A stretch of 48,338 bases of DNA from Planctomycetota bacterium (GTDB lineage Bacteria > Planctomycetota > Planctomycetia > Gemmatales > Gemmataceae). Below the pieces are notes generated by a model, which saw only the letters and a program-made list of their open reading frames with translations, did no database searches and was not told the DNA's origin. The position numbers and the translations under genes were made by a program. Shown here piece after piece: positions 2,537-35,321 of this stretch; position 1 is the first letter of the stretch; each line of letters begins with the position of its first letter. The stretch lies in contig JACPPF010000096.1 in the NCBI GenBank assembly GCA_016191165.1, forward strand, positions 1 to 48,338. Reading direction: 5' to 3'.

Positions 2537-3994
2537 ATGGCGGTGCCGCCTCCACTTCATGTTCTCGTGGTTGAAGATGATCCGGATGCGCGGGCCAACC
2601 TGTGCGACATTCTGGAGCTGGATGGCTACCGGGTGGAGACCGCTGGCACCGTTGCCGAGGCGCTCGATCGGGAGAATTGGTCCGTAATCACAACGGTCAT
2701 CCTGGATTATCGGCTCCCCGATGGTAGCGCCCAGGATTTGCTCCCCCGGCTCCGCGAACTGGCGCCCAAGGCAGCCATTATCGTCTCGACCGGCGTGGCC
2801 GGGCTTGACGGGGCGATCCTTGCCTTGCAGCACGGCGCGGTCGATTACATATTGAAGCCGGTCAACGCGGACGCTTTGCGTGCCAGCCTGATGCGGATCG
2901 CCGAGCGGCAAAAGCTGGCGTGGGCGAAGGAGCGCACCGAGACTGCCTTTCGCACCCTGGTGGAAGCCGCTCCGAGCATGATTGTGATTCTGCGCCTCGA
3001 TCAGAAAATCCTCTACCTTAGCTCGTTCGCGGAACAAATGACCGGGTACAAGGCCAGGGAAGTGGTGGGCAAGGATTACTTCGAAGTCTTCGTGAAAGAT
3101 CCCGGGCTGCGCGAAGCATTCTCTCAAAAACTGAATTGCCTCGTTGCCGATGCGCCCTTGCATGGGTTCGACAATCCCGTGGTATGTAAGGACGGCACCC
3201 GTCGCTGGATCGTCTGGAACGCTCAACTCCTGGCCGATTACGACGACGGCCCCGCGATTTTGGCCATCGGACAGGATATCACCTCCTTGAAGCAGGCCCA
3301 GGAACAAGCCCTGCAATCCGAACGATTGGCAGCCATCGGGCAGATGATGACCGGCCTGGCCCACGAGAGCGGCAATGCCCTGGCCCGCAGCCAGGCCTGC
3401 CTGGAAATGTTGGCCTTCGAGTGCGAAGATCGACCGAAAGCGCTCAACTTGATCACCCGCATTCAGGCGGCACAGGATCACCTCAAGCAGTTGTACGACG
3501 AGGTGCGCAACTACGCCGCGCCCGTGAAACTTCAGCTGGAACCCTGGAATCTGGCGCTCATCTGGCGGCAGGCCTGGGACAACCTCCATCACCTTCGTCA
3601 GGGTAAGACGGCCGACCTTCGCGAAGAAACCTCCGGACTCGACCTGCGCTGTCTGGTCGATCAGTTTCGGCTCGGACAGGTATTCCGCAATATCCTGGAA
3701 AACTCCCTGGCCGCCTGTCAGGAAGATGTCGAGATCCAGGTCCTCGCCAGCCGTGCCGACCTCGAAGGACATCCGGCGATGGAAATCGCCTTCCGGGACA
3801 ACGGCCCAGGGTTGAACGCGGAGCAGCGGCAGCGCGTCTTCGATCCTTTCTTTACCACGAAAACAAAAGGCACGGGTTTGGGCATGGCAATTGCAAAGAG
3901 AATTGTGGAAGCGCACGGCGGCCGAATTACCGTCGGTTCGGGTTTGCATCGTGGCGCAGAAATCCTCATCACCCTTCCCTACAAGAAACCATGA
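2537..3994 (+). CDS. Hybrid REC-PAS-histidine kinase
   Basis: This 485-residue cytosolic hybrid kinase has an N-terminal receiver (about 5-125, phospho-acceptor Asp57 in ILDYRLPDG) and a PAS domain (about 136-250). It then has a HisKA-like region with His276 in LAHESGNAL, and a HATPase_c domain with NILENS, DNGPG and GTGLGMAIAK. The H-box has ESGNAL where ELRNPL is usual, which is a noticeable divergence. The N-terminal receiver probably takes phosphate from the globin kinase and alters the C-terminal kinase. ATG 2537 is preferred because AGGG lies about nine bases upstream; TTG at 2531 is an alternative. The stop overlaps the next start by ATGA. Confidence 0.82.
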   Translation: MAVPPPLHVLVVEDDPDARANLCDILELDGYRVETAGTVAEALDRENWSVITTVILDYRLPDGSAQDLLPRLRELAPKAAIIVSTGVAGLDGAILALQHGAVDYILKPVNADALRASLMRIAERQKLAWAKERTETAFRTLVEAAPSMIVILRLDQKILYLSSFAEQMTGYKAREVVGKDYFEVFVKDPGLREAFSQKLNCLVADAPLHGFDNPVVCKDGTRRWIVWNAQLLADYDDGPAILAIGQDITSLKQAQEQALQSERLAAIGQMMTGLAHESGNALARSQACLEMLAFECEDRPKALNLITRIQAAQDHLKQLYDEVRNYAAPVKLQLEPWNLALIWRQAWDNLHHLRQGKTADLREETSGLDLRCLVDQFRLGQVFRNILENSLAACQEDVEIQVLASRADLEGHPAMEIAFRDNGPGLNAEQRQRVFDPFFTTKTKGTGLGMAIAKRIVEAHGGRITVGSGLHRGAEILITLPYKKP

Positions 3995-4581
3995 AACAGT
4001 CTCTCCATATTGCCATCGCCGACGATGAACCCGATATGCGGGAGTATTTCCAGCAAGTGCTCCCGCGATTGGGCCACACCGTGGTCGCGGCGGCCCGGGA
4101 TGGCCGCGAACTCGTGGAGGTGTGCCGCGCCACCGAACCCGACCTCGTTATCACCGATATCAGGATGCCGGAGTTGGATGGCATCGACGCCGCAGTCCAG
4201 ATCTATCAAGACAGGCCGATTCCGGTGATTCTCGTTTCCGCACACCAGGACACAAATTTGATCGAACGTGCGGATTTGGACCACATCATGGCGTATTTGG
4301 TCAAACCCATCAAACAAGGAGACCTGGCGCCGAGCATCGCCGTCGCCATTCGTCGCTTCGATCAATTCAAGTCGATGCGCCAGGAAGCTGCTGATTTGCG
4401 GCAAGCGCTGGCGGATCGCAAAGTGATTGAGAAGGCCAAGGGCATCCTCATGAAAAAAACCGGGCTGGATGAACCCGAAGCCTTCCGCCGTCTGCAGAAG
4501 CTGGCATCCGAGAAAAACCGCAAATTGGTGGAGATCGCGTCCACGATCCTGACGGCCGAGGAAGCTTTCCAAATCCTGTAA
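3991..4581 (+). CDS. Receiver-ANTAR antiterminator response regulator
   Basis: This 196-residue protein has a receiver domain (1-120; Asp56 in ITDIRMPELDG, Lys in VKPIK) joined through a coiled-coil stretch to a C-terminal ANTAR domain (about 135-196). The ANTAR signature reads RKVIEKAKGILMKK followed by EAFRRLQKLA. ANTAR proteins such as AmiR, EutV and NasR bind paired stem-loops in mRNA leaders and prevent transcription termination. The protein is therefore the likely output of the four-gene pathway, acting on RNA rather than DNA. The gene overlaps the kinase gene by ATGA. The strong leader terminator at 512-558 is a candidate target, although canonical hexaloops are not evident there. Confidence 0.88.
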   Translation: MKQSLHIAIADDEPDMREYFQQVLPRLGHTVVAAARDGRELVEVCRATEPDLVITDIRMPELDGIDAAVQIYQDRPIPVILVSAHQDTNLIERADLDHIMAYLVKPIKQGDLAPSIAVAIRRFDQFKSMRQEAADLRQALADRKVIEKAKGILMKKTGLDEPEAFRRLQKLASEKNRKLVEIASTILTAEEAFQIL

Positions 4582-4759
4582 AACCCATCACCGGCAATTT
4601 GTTCGACCGCACACGCTGTCCCGTTTCCGCCCATTCCGGCTTTGGCCCTGGCCCAAAAAGGCTGGAAACCTTGCCCGAGGGAAGCTCCAATCGAATTGGC
4701 TTGAAAATTGCGTGGACGGAACGCGGTCACGCTATCTTCAAAGCCTTCAGGAGACGGTC

Positions 4760-5221
4760 ATGAAAAGAATCATTTGCGCCGCCACGGCGCTCGCCTTGAT
4801 CACCATCCCCTTCAACGTTTCCGGCCAGGACAAGAAAAAGGACCGGGACGAAATCCTGGCCCAGATGATGCAGAAAAAACTCAAGAGCGCTCACCTGGTG
4901 CTGGACGGGGTTGCTATTGGCGATTTCAAGAAGATCGCAAACGGCGGCGAGGAGTTGATCCGGTTGGCCAAGTCGGAAACCTGGCAGTTGATTCGTTCGC
5001 CGCATTATGAGCGGCACAGTGCCGACTTTATCCGTGCGACGGGCAATCTGGTCAAGAAGGCTCGGGACAAGAACATGGATGGCGCCGCGTTGGCCTACGT
5101 CGAAATGACGCTGAGCTGCGTGCGCTGCCATCAATACGTGCGCGAACACCGCCGCGATGCCCGACTCGATGCGGAGTCCTTGTCCAGGGTTCTTGCCAAG
5201 GTTCGCCAACCGTCGAAATGA
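4760..5221 (+). CDS. Secreted cytochrome c, class II-like
   Basis: This 153-residue protein has a Sec signal peptide (MKRIICAATALALITIPFNVSG, cleavage about residue 22), a mostly helical body and a single haem-attachment motif CVRCH at 120-124 near the C-terminus. That layout resembles cytochrome c'/c-556 four-helix proteins. ATG 4760 is chosen because AGGAGA sits at about 4748-4754 and because the signal peptide begins there; an in-frame start at 4712 would spoil the signal. It follows the signalling operon by 178 bases and may have its own promoter. Being next to a gas-sensing globin kinase, it might deal with O2 or NO in the periplasm, but that is inference. Confidence 0.75.
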   Translation: MKRIICAATALALITIPFNVSGQDKKKDRDEILAQMMQKKLKSAHLVLDGVAIGDFKKIANGGEELIRLAKSETWQLIRSPHYERHSADFIRATGNLVKKARDKNMDGAALAYVEMTLSCVRCHQYVREHRRDARLDAESLSRVLAKVRQPSK

Positions 5222-8925: not shown

Positions 8926-9015
8926 AAAGGGAAAAGGTGTCAGATACAGGGTCCCGACCCCTTTCTTTTCTTTCGCCCCTCTCCCTTCTGGAGAGGGGCC
9001 GGGGGTGAGGGCCGG
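8925..9015. repeat. Compound REP-type repeat
   Basis: It begins with AAAAGGTGTCAGATACAGGGTCCCGACC and continues into CCCCTCTCC...GGAGAGGGGCCGGGGGTGAGGG (about 8976-9012), a hairpin of the same family as those at 27609 and around the DUF559 gene. It marks the point where the surface-protein remnant ends. Confidence 0.6.
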
Positions 9016-26086: not shown

Positions 26087-29000
26087 GTGCGATCACGACA
26101 TTGGAACGCCCCACTCGGATTTTCCGTTCTGTTCGCCCTGGGCGCCGCCGCTCCTGTGGCGCAGGCTGATGTGTTTCAAGAGAAGATTGAACCGTTCGCC
26201 AAGAAATACTGCCATACTTGCCACAACAAGAAGCGGGCCAAGGGCGAGCTGGATCTCACGCGTTACGTTCGGGACGGCGATGTTACCAAGGATTTCCGCC
26301 GCTGGAACAACGTCATCGAGTTCGTTCGCAAAGGAGAGATGCCGCCGAGCGATCACAAGCTTCAGCCGGCGCTGGAGGAGCGCAATGCGGTCGTCGGCGC
26401 CATCAAGGCGATCCTTCTCGTGGAGGCGACGAAACACGCGGGCGATCCCGGCGTCGTCTTGCCGCGCCGGCTTTCCAATACGGAATATGATCTGTCGATT
26501 CGCGATCTCACCGGCGTGGCGATCCAGGCGACCAAGGAGTTCCCTGTCGATCCAGCCGGGGGCGAAGGATTTAACAACACCGGCGAAGTGCTCGCCATGA
26601 CGCCGAGCTTACTCAACAAGTATCTAGGGGCGGCGCAGCTTGTCTCGGACCACCTCGTGCTGAAGCCAAACGGAATCACATTCGCGCCGTTTCCGGTGAC
26701 GTCCTACGCCGAACGCACCAAGCTGACCGAGCAGGCGATCATCGATTTCTACCGCCGACATGAGGTGCGCATTGGCGACTATCTGGAAGCGGCCTGGCGC
26801 TATCGGCATCGCGGTGACGACGAGCGCGGCATCGGTCTCGAAGCGTGGGCGGCCCGGCGCAAGCTGAGCGGCAAGTATCTCGCCGTCGTGTCGAAAACGC
26901 TTGCCGAAGCCAAGACCGGCGCCAGCTATTTGAAACAGCTTGGCGCCCTGTGGGACGCCATTCCAGCGCCCGCGAAAACCGGCGGCGTACCACAAGAGTT
27001 GAGGGAGTGCGAACGATTCATCGCCTTCGCGCGGGCTCGGCTTGGCCAAAAGGAGCCTGCCCTGATCAACGCCAACGCCGGGAACTGGCCGATCAGTCAT
27101 CTCGCTTTGCGCGCCAGGGTGGCAGCCGGACGCGACAAGTTCGATCCCAGTGCCTTCAAGGGTCGGCAAACGCTCAAGCTTGGCCGGTTGCAGGCCAAGA
27201 AGGGAAAAACCCCGTCGGCGACCGTGCTCTATTTGCGCGTCGATCCAGCTTTCGGCTCCCCTCCCGCCGTGGTTGTGTTTCATCGTCCTCTATTCAGCAA
27301 GTCGGATAATCTACCGCGAAACAAAAACGACATCAAGAACCAGGCCGTCGAATCGTTGCGTGCGGTGCTGGAGCGCGACGCCCCCGATGTCGCGCGGCGT
27401 CTCCGCTTCGGCAAACATCCGCGCGGCGGCAAGCTGGATCCCGATTCCTTCGCCGTGCAAGCGCCAGGCGTCGTCGAAATCCCGCTTGGCCCCGCTTCTG
27501 TCACTGCGCTGCATGGCAGGCAGTTGCTCGTCGAATGCGAACTCGACAGCAACTCGACGCCGGAAGCGGCGGCTCAGGTCCAACACGCTGTCGGCACGCG
27601 CCCCGGTCCCTCACCCCTTACCCCTCTTCCCGGGGGAGAGGGGAAAGCGGTGAGGGGCAACGTCGAATTACTCATGCGGTCTGAGAGCAAGGTGGCCAAG
27701 GAACTCACGGCATCGTACCAACGATTCTGCGCCGCGTTTCCCAATCGCTTCTTCTATGTGGACGCCAATCGCGGTTTGGCCGCGGGCTTCCACCTCGTCG
27801 AAGGGTTCTTTCGCGACGATCAGCCGCTCGTCAACAAGGTGTTGACCGACGCGGAACGCAAAGAACTGGACCGCCTCTGGAAGGAACTCGACTTCGTCAC
27901 CCAGAGCGTGGAGACCATGCTGCGCGGCTTCGTCTGGTTCGAACGGGCCGAGCGTCACGTGCTGCATGACAAACGCTTCGATTGGCTGCGTTCGGAAGAT
28001 CCGTCGCTCGTTGAGGAGAAAACGCTGGAAAAATTCGAGCGGCTCTATCACGAAAGGCTCGGCGTCAAACTCATGGCCGACGCGATCAAGCCGCAAAAGA
28101 CGAATGCGCAGTTCGATTTGATTCACGGCTACTTCGAGCAGACTCGCGCTGGACTGGCGGAATACAAACAGACGCTCATGAAGGCCGAGGCGCCGGCGCT
28201 GGCCGAGCTGGAGCGTCTTGCCCAGCGCGCCTACTCCCGGCCATTGCGTCCCGGCGAGGCCAGGTCCTTGCGCGGGCTTTATCAAAGGCTGCGAAAGCAG
28301 GGACAGGGCGTCGAGGCGTCATTGCGCGGCGCCTTCGCGGCGGTGCTGATTTCGCCGCACTTCTTCTATCGCGCCCCCGGCACGCCCGAAGGACGCGGTG
28401 TTCATCCCCTGACGGGCGAAGCGATGGCGCGACGGTTGAGCTATTTCCTCTGGGCGTCGTTACCGGATGACGAATTGCTCAAAGCGGCCGGCGCCGCCAA
28501 GCTGCAAGACGACGCGGTACTGAGGACCCAGGTGCGGCGCATGATGAAGGACCCGAAAATCGAGGCGTTCTCCCGCGAGTTCTTCGGGCAATGGCTGCGC
28601 TATCGCGATTACCTGGCGAAGGATCCGATTCCCCCAAAAACGTTTCCAGGCTACGACGCCGCCTTGCGCCAGGCGATGTTCGAGGAACCGACGCGGCTCA
28701 TCACGCATTTGATTCAGCAGAACGAGCCGGTCGATGAGCTGCTGCACAGCGACGCCACCTTCGTCAACGAAAGGCTCGCCCGGTTCTATGGTGGTTCACT
28801 CGAGCAACAGTTCCGCAAGTTAGCCGGAAGCGCAAGCGACGGATTGCGAGGCTGGCACCGCGTCGAGGGCTTGCGGAGCATCGGCCGCGGCGGGCTGTTC
28901 GGCATGCCGGTGATCCTGGCGGGAAACTCGGTGGGCCAACGCACGAGCCCGGTGAAGCGTGGGTTCTGGGTCGTGCATCATGTGCTCGGCCAGCACTTTC

Positions 29001-32536: not shown

Positions 32537-33016
32537 ATGCGCCGGCTCAAGATCCCCATCCTGTTTGCTCTGCTCCTTCTCCCAACTGCCCACAGTTCAG
32601 GCCAGCCCGGGCCCATTGGGAAGGGCGATGTCGTCGCACCGGCCGTCGCCCCCAAGGTCTACATGGCAACTGCAGCCCAGCGGGGTGGCGAGGTGGTGAT
32701 TCGGGTATCGGCTCCCGGCATGCGGCTCACCAACAAGGACAAGGATGGCAAGGGCTGGGTGTACTGTTGGACGGAAATGGCCGCCATGACTCTGGACAAG
32801 CAGGTGTTAGCGTACAACCCTGCCGGTAAACGGCTGGACAGGAAGGCGGTGGTCAAGGCATTGATAAAGCCGGTGTTAGTGGTCTGCTTCATACGGATGA
32901 CGCCCCACGACCCAAAGAGACCGGACCCAGCATATGCCGGGGTGTTCAAGGACGGAACCGTGCTGCTTGTGTTCGGCCCGTTCGACAATACGAAAGCCAA
33001 GGACCTGCTTCGGTGA
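32537..33016 (+). CDS. Secreted hypothetical protein
   Basis: This 159-residue protein has a Sec signal peptide (MRRLKIPILFALLLLPTAHSSGQ, cleavage about residue 22). A mature part of about 137 residues contains GKGWVYCWTEMAAMTL and AGVFKDGTVLLVFGPFD. I do not recognise the family, though small secreted orphans of this kind are frequent in planctomycetes. GGGAGA precedes ATG 32537. It lies between the gene-end repeat array and the first of the 128-bp elements, on the same strand as the cassettes, so it may itself be cassette cargo. Confidence 0.65.
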   Translation: MRRLKIPILFALLLLPTAHSSGQPGPIGKGDVVAPAVAPKVYMATAAQRGGEVVIRVSAPGMRLTNKDKDGKGWVYCWTEMAAMTLDKQVLAYNPAGKRLDRKAVVKALIKPVLVVCFIRMTPHDPKRPDPAYAGVFKDGTVLLVFGPFDNTKAKDLLR

Positions 33017-33030
33017 TCGGTTACGGGCGG

Positions 33031-33158
33031 GTGGCCGGGGTCAGTACTCCGACCCCGGAGCAAGCCGTCAAACCGCCGCGACCCATGCACCGATTGCGGT
33101 CGCCGAGTCATGCCAGCAAGCGCGGGACATCCGGGGTCGGAGTACCGACCCCGGCCAC
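33031..33158. repeat. 128-bp element R1: inverted REP hairpins around a constant core
   Basis: The ends are 28-bp inverted repeats, GTGGCCGGGGTCAGTACTCC at the left and the complement at 33131-33158, and each end folds by itself (CCGGGGTCGG and CCGACCCCGG around a four-base loop). The core of about 72 bases includes GTCAAACCGCCGCGACCC and an inner GCGACC/GGTCGC pair. It is shared almost unchanged with R2 and R3. Confidence 0.85.
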
Positions 33159-33495: not shown

Positions 33496-33876
33496 GTGCC
33501 TGTTTACGACAGCAGCTTCAAGCCTCCCGCGCCGGTAGCTGACGTGACCGTCGCACATCCGGTCAGTGGTCTTCGCCGGCGCACCTTGCGCGGCAAGCTG
33601 GATTCCGGCGCCGATACCACGGTCATTCCGGATCGAGTAGTGAAGCAACTCGGCTTGACACCAAGGGGACATATCTGGACGCGCGGCTTCGACGGGACGT
33701 TCTCGCACCGGCCGGTGTTCTATGTGCGGTTTCTGCTGGAAGGCTTTGACCTTCCGAGTGTACGCTGCGTCGCCGCCGACCGAACGACCGTTTTGGTAGG
33801 GCGCAACGTGTTGAATCGCTTCCTTCTGATCCTGGACGGCAAAAACCGGACGTTTGACCTGCAGGATCCTCCTTGA
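33496..33876 (+). CDS. Retropepsin-like aspartic protease (cassette copy 1)
   Basis: This 126-residue protein carries KLDSGADTTVIP with catalytic Asp36 in the DSGA motif. The later strand RTTVLVGRNVLNRFLLILDGKN corresponds to the retropepsin psi-loop region. Such a subunit would be active only as a dimer. The start is GTG with GGAGAG nine bases upstream. It is co-transcribed with the DUF5678-like gene and lies between R1 and R2. Sequence identity to the protease at 34265 is low outside the motif, so the two are not a recent duplication. Confidence 0.8.
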   Translation: MPVYDSSFKPPAPVADVTVAHPVSGLRRRTLRGKLDSGADTTVIPDRVVKQLGLTPRGHIWTRGFDGTFSHRPVFYVRFLLEGFDLPSVRCVAADRTTVLVGRNVLNRFLLILDGKNRTFDLQDPP

Positions 33877-33878
33877 CT

Positions 33879-34010
33879 GTGGCCGCGGTCGGTCGTTACT
33901 CCGACTCCGGAACAACCCGTCAAACCGCCGCGACCCATGCACCGATTGCGGTCGCCGAGTCATGCCAGCAAGCGCGGGACATCCGGGGTCGGAGTACTGA
34001 GTCCGGCCAC
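33879..34010. repeat. 132-bp element R2
   Basis: The same core as R1 is enclosed by ends GTGGCCGCGGTCGG (left, with a short insertion) and AGTCCGGCCAC (right). It begins three bases after the retropepsin stop. Confidence 0.85.
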
Positions 34011-34058: not shown

Positions 34059-34268
34059 ATGTCAATTGCTGAGATCATTCCTGCGGTTCAGGCTCTCAAT
34101 CGCAGCGAGAAATTCCGCCTCGCGCAAATGTTGCTTGAAGATTTGGCCCACGACGAACAGATCGTCTTCAAGGAAGGGCAGAAATATCCCATCTACACGC
34201 CGGAATACGCTCCGGACGCTGCGGCGCAGCTGGCCCAACTCCTCAGGGAGGAGGGGAGCACTTCATGA
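34059..34268 (+). CDS. Small helical protein, retropepsin partner
   Basis: This 69-residue protein starts MSIAEIIPAVQALNRSEKFRLAQMLLEDLAHDEQIVFKEGQKYPIYTPEYAPDAAAQLAQLL. The SEKFRLAQMLLEDL stretch resembles small antitoxin-like proteins seen in cyanobacteria and planctomycetes. A strong GGAGG at 34046-34050 precedes ATG 34059. The stop overlaps the next start by ATGA, so the pair is translationally coupled. No experimental function is known to me. Confidence 0.72.
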   Translation: MSIAEIIPAVQALNRSEKFRLAQMLLEDLAHDEQIVFKEGQKYPIYTPEYAPDAAAQLAQLLREEGSTS

Positions 34269-34696
34269 ACGCTGTCGAGCAATTTCCCTACTGCGATCGT
34301 AACCCGGCTTCCGCAGGATTGGATCTGATGCCGGATTTACCCATTGTCCTTCGTCATCAAACTCACTCCTTGTCGGCAGTAGCGTTGGTTGACAGTGGCG
34401 CCTCGATCAGCGTGCTCCCGTATTCGTTGGGAGTTCAACTTGGGTTGGATTGGAACTCCCAAAAGGCGCACATCACTCTTGCTGGAACTCTCGCACACGT
34501 AGGCGCGCGCGGTATCGTCGTCGAGGCGGTTGTTGGGCAACTCACGCCGGCGCGCCTGGCACTGGCCTGGGCCAACTCGGATCAGGTGCCGTCTCTGCTC
34601 GGACAGTTCAATTTTTTCCAGGTGTTCGATATCTGCTTTTTCCGTACGCGTGGCTTTTTCGAGATCAGGCCACCAGGCGTAGCGCCATTGCCGTGA
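34265..34696 (+). CDS. Retropepsin-like aspartic protease (cassette copy 2)
   Basis: This 143-residue protein contains ALVDSGASISVLPYSLG with catalytic Asp43 and, near the C-terminus, SLLGQFNFFQVFDICFF in place of the second glycine-rich strand. It follows the helical partner gene by a four-base overlap and lies between R2 and R3. It forms the second protease plus small-protein module in this stretch. Its core is shorter than that of cellular pepsins, so it must act as a dimer if active. Confidence 0.78.
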   Translation: MNAVEQFPYCDRNPASAGLDLMPDLPIVLRHQTHSLSAVALVDSGASISVLPYSLGVQLGLDWNSQKAHITLAGTLAHVGARGIVVEAVVGQLTPARLALAWANSDQVPSLLGQFNFFQVFDICFFRTRGFFEIRPPGVAPLP

Positions 34697-34710
34697 TCTG
34701 TTGAACGACC

Positions 34711-34838
34711 GTGGCCGGGGCCTGTACTCCGACTCCGGAACAACCCGTCAAACCGCCGCGACCCATGCACCGATTGCGGTCGCCGAGTTATGCCAGCAAG
34801 CGCGGGACATCCGCGGTCGGAGTGCCGACCCCCAGCCG
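34711..34838. repeat. 128-bp element R3
   Basis: The core is almost identical to R1 and R2 (one substitution, GAGTTATGCC); the ends are more diverged (GTGGCCGGGGCC at left, CCCAGCCGC at right). Confidence 0.82.
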
Positions 34839-34895: not shown

Positions 34896-34935
34896 CCCTC
34901 CCCCCTTGTGGGGGAGGGTTGGGGTGGGGGGTGAG
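34896..34935. repeat. Left 40-bp inverted repeat of the DUF559 element
   Basis: It starts CCCTCCCCCCTTGTGGGGGA and ends GGGGGGTGAG. It matches the complement of 35262-35301 at 39 of 40 positions and can also fold on itself (CCCTCCCCC / GGGGGAGGG). Confidence 0.88.
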
Positions 34936-34940
34936 AACTC

Positions 34941-35321
34941 ATGAACCATCACTTCGCTCGCCAGCTTCGGAAAAACATGACCGACGAAGAACGCCTGCTC
35001 TGGCGTGAACTTCGTTTTCGTCAACTGAGTAGAAAGTTCCGCCGCCAGGCGCCTATCGGCAACTACATCGTCGATTTTGTCTGCTTCGAGGTCAAGCTGA
35101 TCATCGAGCTGGACGGTAGCCAGCACGCCGGCCAGGTCGAAGACGATTCGCGGCGAACCGAATGGCTGCAAACACAAGGCTTTCGCGTATTGCGGTTTTG
35201 GAATCATCAGATCCGGGAGGATATTGAAACTGTGATGGAGGTGATCTGGAAGGAACTGCAACTCACCCCCCACCCCGACCCTCCCCCACAAGGGGGGAGG
35301 GAGAAAACGGGGCATTCTTGA
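34941..35321 (+). CDS. DUF559 endonuclease-like protein within inverted repeats
   Basis: This 126-residue protein is a complete DUF559 domain (Vsr/MutH-like, PD-(D/E)XK fold). It starts FARQLRKNMTDEERLLWRELRFRQL, then has IGNYIVDFVCFEVKLIIELDGSQHAG (acid Asp in VDFVC, Glu-Leu-Asp-Gly at the active site) and WLQTQGFRVLRFWNHQI with a late helix. The last about 19 residues, from LTPHPDPPPQGG, are translated from the right inverted repeat. The ATG follows the left inverted repeat by five bases. The gene together with its two repeats makes a compact unit of about 406 bp. Enzyme activity is inferred from family residues. Confidence 0.85.
   Translation: MNHHFARQLRKNMTDEERLLWRELRFRQLSRKFRRQAPIGNYIVDFVCFEVKLIIELDGSQHAGQVEDDSRRTEWLQTQGFRVLRFWNHQIREDIETVMEVIWKELQLTPHPDPPPQGGREKTGHS
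35262..35301. repeat. Right 40-bp inverted repeat of the DUF559 element
   Basis: It begins CTCACCCCCCACCCCGACCC and ends in GGGGGGAGGG. It matches the complement of the left repeat except for one base, and forms the 3' coding end of the nuclease gene. Confidence 0.88.

Follow-up and report, generated by a model that had tools for sequence, protein, structure and literature searches.

A DUF559 nuclease gene between inverted triplex-type repeats in a planctomycete genome: candidate for a RAYT-like module built on an unrelated enzyme

In a stretch of 48,338 nucleotides from a planctomycete of the family Gemmataceae (contig JACPPF010000096.1, in the following called the window) a small gene encoding a DUF559 nuclease is enclosed by two inverted copies of a G-rich repeat. 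This association between nuclease and repeat is strong and widespread and is found across several phyla, and the repeat type tracks the lineage of the nuclease rather than the host genome. With a probability of roughly 0.55 we consider nuclease and repeat pair to be a selfish module comparable with RAYT–REPIN systems, in which a stand-alone PD-(D/E)XK enzyme of Vsr/EDxHD type would be dedicated to its own triplex-type repeat. What is new here is that a known repeat class without a mobility gene is now paired with a nuclease, and the kind of system is a repeat population with a dedicated enzyme.

The window unit and its surroundings

The unit has the order repeat, DUF559 gene, inverted repeat and comprises about 406 bp (Table 1). 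An earlier note on this DNA had described the gene as lying inside inverted repeats of 40 bp with 39 matching positions, and exactly this is found: the arms are 40 nt each, complementary in 39 of 40 positions and 326 nt apart. The DUF559 gene is the sole gene-sized open reading frame with a family match between them. Its product ends with ...QLTPHPDPPPQGGREKTGHS; the right arm overlaps the reading frame and codes for the C-terminal ...LTPHPDPPPQGG, and the stop codon follows past this arm, so that the repeat-encoded C-terminus claimed in the same note was read correctly. Calculated hairpin energies correspond to z=-1.1 for the left and z=-2.3 for the right arm. The left arm does not stand out by this measure, so that the three-tract pattern rather than hairpin stability is the informative feature.

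Table 1. Positions of the nuclease unit and of related solo repeats in the window
Feature	Position	Strand	Sequence	Remarks
Left repeat	34896..34935	+		Tail faces gene
Left repeat, C stem	34896-34904		CCCTCCCCC	
Left repeat, loop			CTTGT	Between C stem and G stem
Left repeat, G stem	34910-34918		GGGGGAGGG	
Left repeat, linker			TTG	3 nt, between G stem and third G tract
Left repeat, third G tract	34922-34930		GGGTGGGGG	
DUF559 nuclease gene	34941..35321	+		126 aa; conserved E17, D45, E56, D58, H62 (predicted Vsr/EDxHD-like active site)
Right repeat	35262..35301	-		Inverted left repeat, linker TCG, tail faces gene, encodes protein C-terminus
Solo repeat	8976..9011	+	CCCCTCTCCC variant	Type of L002 repeats
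Solo repeat	27608..27643	-	CCCCTCTCCC variant	In frame within 1179-aa ORF

No further match to the arm repeat occurs in the window at up to three mismatches (0 in 100 shuffles), and a sister copy of the unit is not detectable in its genome. According to the earlier note the arm family recurs at two other sites of the window. Both copies do have the architecture of the arms, but they represent a different variant (CCCCTCTCCC/GGAGAGGGG-CC-GGGGGTGAGGG) that resembles the repeats around a second DUF559 gene and not the arms of the window unit; that the copy at 27608 is read in frame within a long reading frame was rightly seen. This second gene (L002) is the only further DUF559 gene of the source genome (7.2 Mb, 183 contigs). 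It is broken by a TGA codon and lies also between inverted repeats, of a variant other than that of the window arms.

Just upstream of the unit a 140-nt repeat is present in three direct copies with 81-89% identity (33013-33152, 33865-34004 and 34693-34832; spacing 852 and 828 nt). These copies contain an internal inverted repeat and are located near two reading frames for retropepsin-like aspartyl proteases (33496-33876 and 34265-34696).

The nuclease

The window protein matches DUF559 (PF04480) with E=2.6e-42 and 143.5 bits against a curated cut-off of 20.6, and DUF559 and MTES_1575 are its only Pfam matches. Among 28 diverse relatives the residues R10, E17, L20, W21, Q36, F46, E56, D58, G59, H62, D69 and R85 are invariant, and D45 is nearly so. 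By comparison with the fold family, the layout E...D...ExD...H is a predicted active site of the Vsr-like PD-(D/E)XK type. A profile of the family retrieves an endonuclease-like protein from Neisseria gonorrhoeae (PDB 3hrl, E=6e-37) and the homing endonuclease I-Bth0305I (PDB 3r3p, E=1e-5). The AlphaFold model of the window protein (mean pLDDT 90.5) has structural matches to the same two proteins (3r3p with a Foldseek E=2.1e-5) and to Vsr (1vsr).

Fold and active-site layout are alike in the Vsr and DUF559 repair nucleases, i.e. Vsr from Escherichia coli, VsrA from Caulobacter and NGO0050 from N. gonorrhoeae (PDB 3hrl), the last of which is closely homologous to the family of the window protein. 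In contrast with these enzymes the window protein reaches only 14.4 bits with the NCBIfam vsr model, far under its cut-off of 97.85, and its gene is flanked by matched repeats. With the EDxHD homing endonuclease I-Bth0305I, a precedent for a selfish nuclease of Vsr-like type, it has the catalytic fold in common together with detectable sequence homology, but the window unit has no intron or intein host and is bounded by repeats. A reading as defence system is unsupported, the best PADLOC match (E=0.0055) being to a model of 1078 positions. For Caulobacter it was described that VsrA (CCNA_02930), which contains a DUF559 domain, causes an SOS response in cells without the methyltransferase ScmA; it was proposed as a TG-mismatch endonuclease, and a likely role in mismatch repair was reported (PMC12907096).

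The repeat class

The third tract of these repeats mirrors the G strand, with T standing in for A, and it follows after a linker of 3 nt. Both window arms, with their 3-nt linkers, fit this code in 9/9 positions. Averaged over 169 repeats, the fit amounts to 0.802, compared to 0.731+-0.005 after redistribution of the tails among loci, and the mirror code with A-to-T exchange describes them better than a direct-copy code. Since the third tract fits the antiparallel purine code of class II triplexes (G.GC, T.AT), the repeats can be assigned to the class known as boxC, PIT or "triplex motif" (TM), and judged by sequence those of the window are members of it. The published motifs comprise a C-tract, a G/A-tract, a third G-tract and a second loop of 3 nt as seen in the window arms (TTG, TCG), form inverted pairs and vary in their presence among strains (PMC4666352). 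The E. coli motif was reported from more than 260 genomes, in inverted pairs and with T-T-A or C-C-G as second loop, and triplex formation in vitro has been published for it (PMC4666352). Triplex-type repeats are known from hundreds of genomes, are abundant in many of them and have been tied to genome instability; the 2015 survey detected no mobility gene close to its triplex motifs and no remnants of transposases or integrases around them, and gave no explanation of how they spread (PMC4666352). The repeats described here differ in that they enclose a DUF559 nuclease gene, which is inherited together with its particular variant of the motif.

A consensus of TM type, typed from the present repeats, is matched in 4314 out of 5426 genomes of E. 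coli. The DUF559 gene of this species, ycjD, is found in 3365 of the 5426 and has sapF and fabI as neighbours in the records examined; a triplex-type motif, CCCCTCTGGGGAGAGGGTTAGGGTGAGGGG, is located downstream of it (L142 2969-3536). Flanking inverted repeats were looked for at E. coli ycjD and at the Klebsiella DUF559 gene and are absent there. Two E. coli strains without ycjD (L230, L231) were considered for an insertion junction and dismissed, as they have efflux genes after sapF instead. In Sinorhizobium meliloti a DUF559 gene (L146) is placed between inverted elements of about 115 bp with two palindromes each (2818-2950 and 3396-3529), which we take to resemble the RIME of Rhizobium and Sinorhizobium. 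A literature search, carried out largely without subscription papers, found no report that links DUF559 to repeats.

Occurrence of matched repeats around DUF559 genes

DUF559 genes were drawn from three sources: 294 genomes of the window's phylum, 148 genomes of a second phylum and the records of a plasmid collection. Two measures were applied. In the first, the best inverted match between the 500-bp flanks was scored with a threshold of >=15. This value is reached by 74% of 70 DUF559 genes (nearly all from the phylum of the window); for this set, random positions of the same loci reach it in 0.2% of cases and flanks combined from different loci in 10%. Among 39 DUF559 loci lying mostly outside of the phylum it is reached by 64%. 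The second measure was a structural definition fixed in one script, namely a C-rich stem, a G-rich stem and a G tail. Repeats with C-hairpin and G-tail, the tail pointing inwards, are present on both sides of 67% of 107 DUF559 genes (Planctomycetes, second phylum, plasmids), but on both sides of none of 27 genes for Y1 (RAYT/IS200) transposases and none of 436 random positions of the same loci, which were mostly coding. Because related genes are frequent in the sample, the genes were collapsed at 60% identity; a tail-in pair then occurs in at least half of the members of 20 out of 38 protein clusters. The rates err on the low side, because variants that contain an additional small hairpin, such as L026 and the Shinella gene L209, escape the pattern.

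The suggestion of the earlier note that DUF559 genes elsewhere may be flanked by inverted matched repeats is borne out, as this is the case far more often than for other positions or Y1 genes. The counter-case it had named, repeats of this type lying equally often around random sites, is at variance with the finding that not a single random position was enclosed. That the whole arrangement is an artefact of common G/C-rich repeats flanking the gene by chance, or of biased sampling, is therefore very improbable: the class is indeed abundant in many genomes (PMC4666352) and many sampled genes are related, but the effect survives clustering, the random positions yield nothing and the arms match within the unit.

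Co-diversification of repeat and nuclease

DUF559 genes that belong to different clades are accompanied by different repeats even in one genome, and genes of the same clade have the same repeat in other genomes. Repeat similarity amounts to 0.44 when similar nucleases of different genomes are compared, versus 0.25 for dissimilar nucleases in the same genome (p=1.4e-4, an indicative value, as the pairs compared are not fully independent). The arms of one unit match each other at 0.57 versus 0.25 with other units of the same genome.

In a tree of 106 proteins the well-supported branches force at least seven label changes for each of the two large phyla, which means that several moves between phyla took place. 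The window protein groups with one protein from a Deinococcus plasmid and one from Myxococcota with moderate support. L139, a clade-D nuclease from the second phylum, is accompanied by the repeat of its clade. One nuclease clade occupies a single conserved locus in about ten genomes and represents vertical descent. In 33 related genomes the copy number of the clade-D repeat shows no significant dependence on whether the matching nuclease is present (medians 13 and 6, p=0.36), and one genome (G088) contains 65 copies with the matching nuclease being absent. Two genomes of different genera (G195 and G153) have a segment of about 1.5 kb with a DUF559 gene in common (L053/L054; 97% DNA identity), owing either to recent transfer or to assembly contamination.

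Signs of mobility

Judged from their sequences, units in other genomes and their gene-less derivatives look mobile. In the units L041 and L052, which come from two genomes, an identity of about 80% sets in with the opening base of the left repeat (TGTCCCC...) and extends up to the final base of the right repeat (...GGGGACA); their flanks are unrelated. As the homology ends exactly at the repeats, the unit in this case is repeat–gene–repeat. The repeat of this clade occurs in 14-39 copies in four carrier genomes, with a reversed control pattern giving 0, and many of the copies are gene-less tail-in pairs of 188-259 bp. In another clade dispersed REPIN-like elements of about 165 bp are found, which consist of two repeats separated by about 20 bp.

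Among ten orthologous loci there are three sites at which repeats are present in most genomes and missing from one. About 8-16 bp of the target were replaced on insertion at these polymorphic sites, and a clear target-site duplication was seen at none of the three. At site 1 the difference in length to the empty site is divisible by three for every insert; the inserts sit in an open, DNA methyltransferase-like frame, where they are translated as ...EPTPNPSQEGN.... Paired repeats within a methyltransferase-like frame beside a clade-A DUF559 gene were noticed in L064, L072, L075, L076, L080, L081, L083, L084 and L086. A Sinorhizobium cassette (repeat pair, DUF559 gene, repeat pair) is missing between the same two genes in Shinella. 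For a gene-bearing unit a clean junction within one species was sought and not found; a supposed empty site for the unit of L040 in G450 had to be rejected, the orthologous site being occupied by another repeat type. A classical insertion sequence or MITE of DDE type does not describe these elements, as a transposase of a known class is lacking and clear target-site duplication is absent at the polymorphic sites.

Some further observations concern the same loci. Gene-less pairs are seen at the centre of longer repeated flanks in two sets (L041, L090, L091 and L093; L089, L092, L099 and L104), and in L104 a single hairpin stands between the flanks known from L092 and L099, as if an insert had been lost or were yet to arrive. 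A clade-C DUF559 gene of G453 is broken by a 412-bp insertion with TA duplication (L174 920-1331). L053 contains, relative to L054, an insertion of 594 bp with a 7-bp duplication, CGCTTCA (4321-4909).

Comparison with RAYT–REPIN systems

The window unit is alike to the systems formed by RAYT (TnpA-REP) and REP/REPIN sequences ("REPtrons") in that a small enzyme gene lies between inverted, lineage-matched, dispersed palindromic repeats, which is one of the features that characterise RAYT systems. Gene-less repeat pairs and repeats that are sometimes located within genes are likewise common to both. But the enzyme belongs to the PD-(D/E)XK type instead of HUH/Y1. No Y1/HUH tyrosine transposase is encoded in the unit, whose protein has the Pfam domains already mentioned and a Vsr-like fold. 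The repeat differs too, being a triplex-type motif of C, G and G tracts: a GTAG-type foot is absent from the window arms, which show C-stem, G-stem and G-tail. The analogy drawn in the earlier note is apt, and units and gene-less derivatives look mobile; the repeats are of the boxC/PIT/triplex-motif class and not REP in the RAYT sense. The unit is best read as a RAYT-like module built on an unrelated enzyme rather than as a genuine RAYT system.

Y1 genes are common in genomes that carry DUF559 units, and many of them (L180-L206) are flanked by inverted repeats whose sequences are quite unlike these, such as AAGCTCCGTAGGAGCGGCCTGT. These Y1 genes with their own repeats serve as positive control for the method and show that two separate repeat–enzyme systems exist side by side, so RAYT and DUF559 systems coexist within one genome with separate repeats. 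It might be argued from the frequency of Y1 genes that RAYT/IS200-type transposases spread the repeats and that DUF559 is an incidental passenger. This explanation is largely refuted and was rejected as having hardly any probability left: C-hairpin/G-tail repeats on both sides are missing from all 27 Y1 loci, many of which carry different inverted repeats, and in G034, a genome of two contigs with a listed completeness of 100%, there is a DUF559 unit (L038) and no Y1 gene.

Proposed mechanism and alternative roles of the nuclease

Beyond the co-inheritance of nuclease and repeat, all steps of the mechanism outlined here are ones that we infer. In single-stranded form, during replication or repair, the C tract, the G tract and the mirrored third G tract of a repeat would fold into a hairpin or triplex. 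The nuclease may recognise its own repeat type and cut within or beside it. Host repair could then copy segments with repeat ends (solo repeat, pair or repeat–gene–repeat) elsewhere in a homing-like manner, and I-Bth0305I is an enzymatic precedent for such a cycle. Host functions must be assumed, because a PD-(D/E)XK enzyme would be able to cut DNA but hardly to rejoin it; neither ligase nor strand-transfer activity is to be expected of this fold. The DUF559 nuclease is a good candidate for the agent that disperses boxC-class repeats. Only tentatively, at odds slightly short of even, we propose a class of minimal mobile modules in which a lone PD-(D/E)XK nuclease would recognise an intrastrand-triplex repeat and disperse it via host repair, as single copies, as pairs or together with the nuclease gene.

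Two other roles of the enzyme have to be weighed. It could be a host nuclease for repair or structure processing, similar to Vsr, and not a spreader of repeats, which would gather at the gene through regulating DUF559 or through being tolerated or processed by the enzyme. Such a role agrees with the proposed TG-mismatch endonuclease activity of the Caulobacter DUF559 protein VsrA (PMC12907096), with the nuclease clade that stays at a single conserved locus, with ycjD, which is frequent in E. coli and adjoins sapF in the examined records, and with repeat copy numbers that are uncorrelated with the nuclease. We nevertheless regard it as unlikely, since it leaves unexplained that the arms match each other and the nuclease clade instead of the host genome, that the homology of units stops at the repeats and gene-less derivatives exist, and that moves between phyla occurred with matched repeats. 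Less likely still appears a transposase-like action, i.e. excision of the unit at its repeat ends by the nuclease followed by re-insertion, as opposed to copying into a break. It would account for the sharp ends of L041 and L052, for the dispersed short derivatives and for insertions at orthologous sites that replace about 8-16 bp of target with clear duplication absent. The fold is not expected to provide the ligase or strand-transfer activity needed, and an excision scar was not identified, the single hairpin of L104 being equally well a product of slippage. The selfish module with repair-dependent copying of its repeats therefore remains the preferred reading.

Implications

If this reading is true, the module would explain several long-known orphan repeats, namely boxC/PIT/TM in E. 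coli and Neisseria, the RIME-like elements of rhizobia and the G-rich repeats of some planctomycetes, in parallel with RAYT–REPIN and yet independently of it. A repeat-matched nuclease that travels with triplex-type repeats is a concrete and testable candidate for their spread. For DUF559, a domain without settled function that is present even in E. coli (ycjD), a role would be suggested in this way. A nuclease that recognises a specific triplex or hairpin would also be a useful laboratory reagent. Finally, populations of REP-like repeats served by a dedicated enzyme would then have evolved at least twice, from unrelated nucleases.
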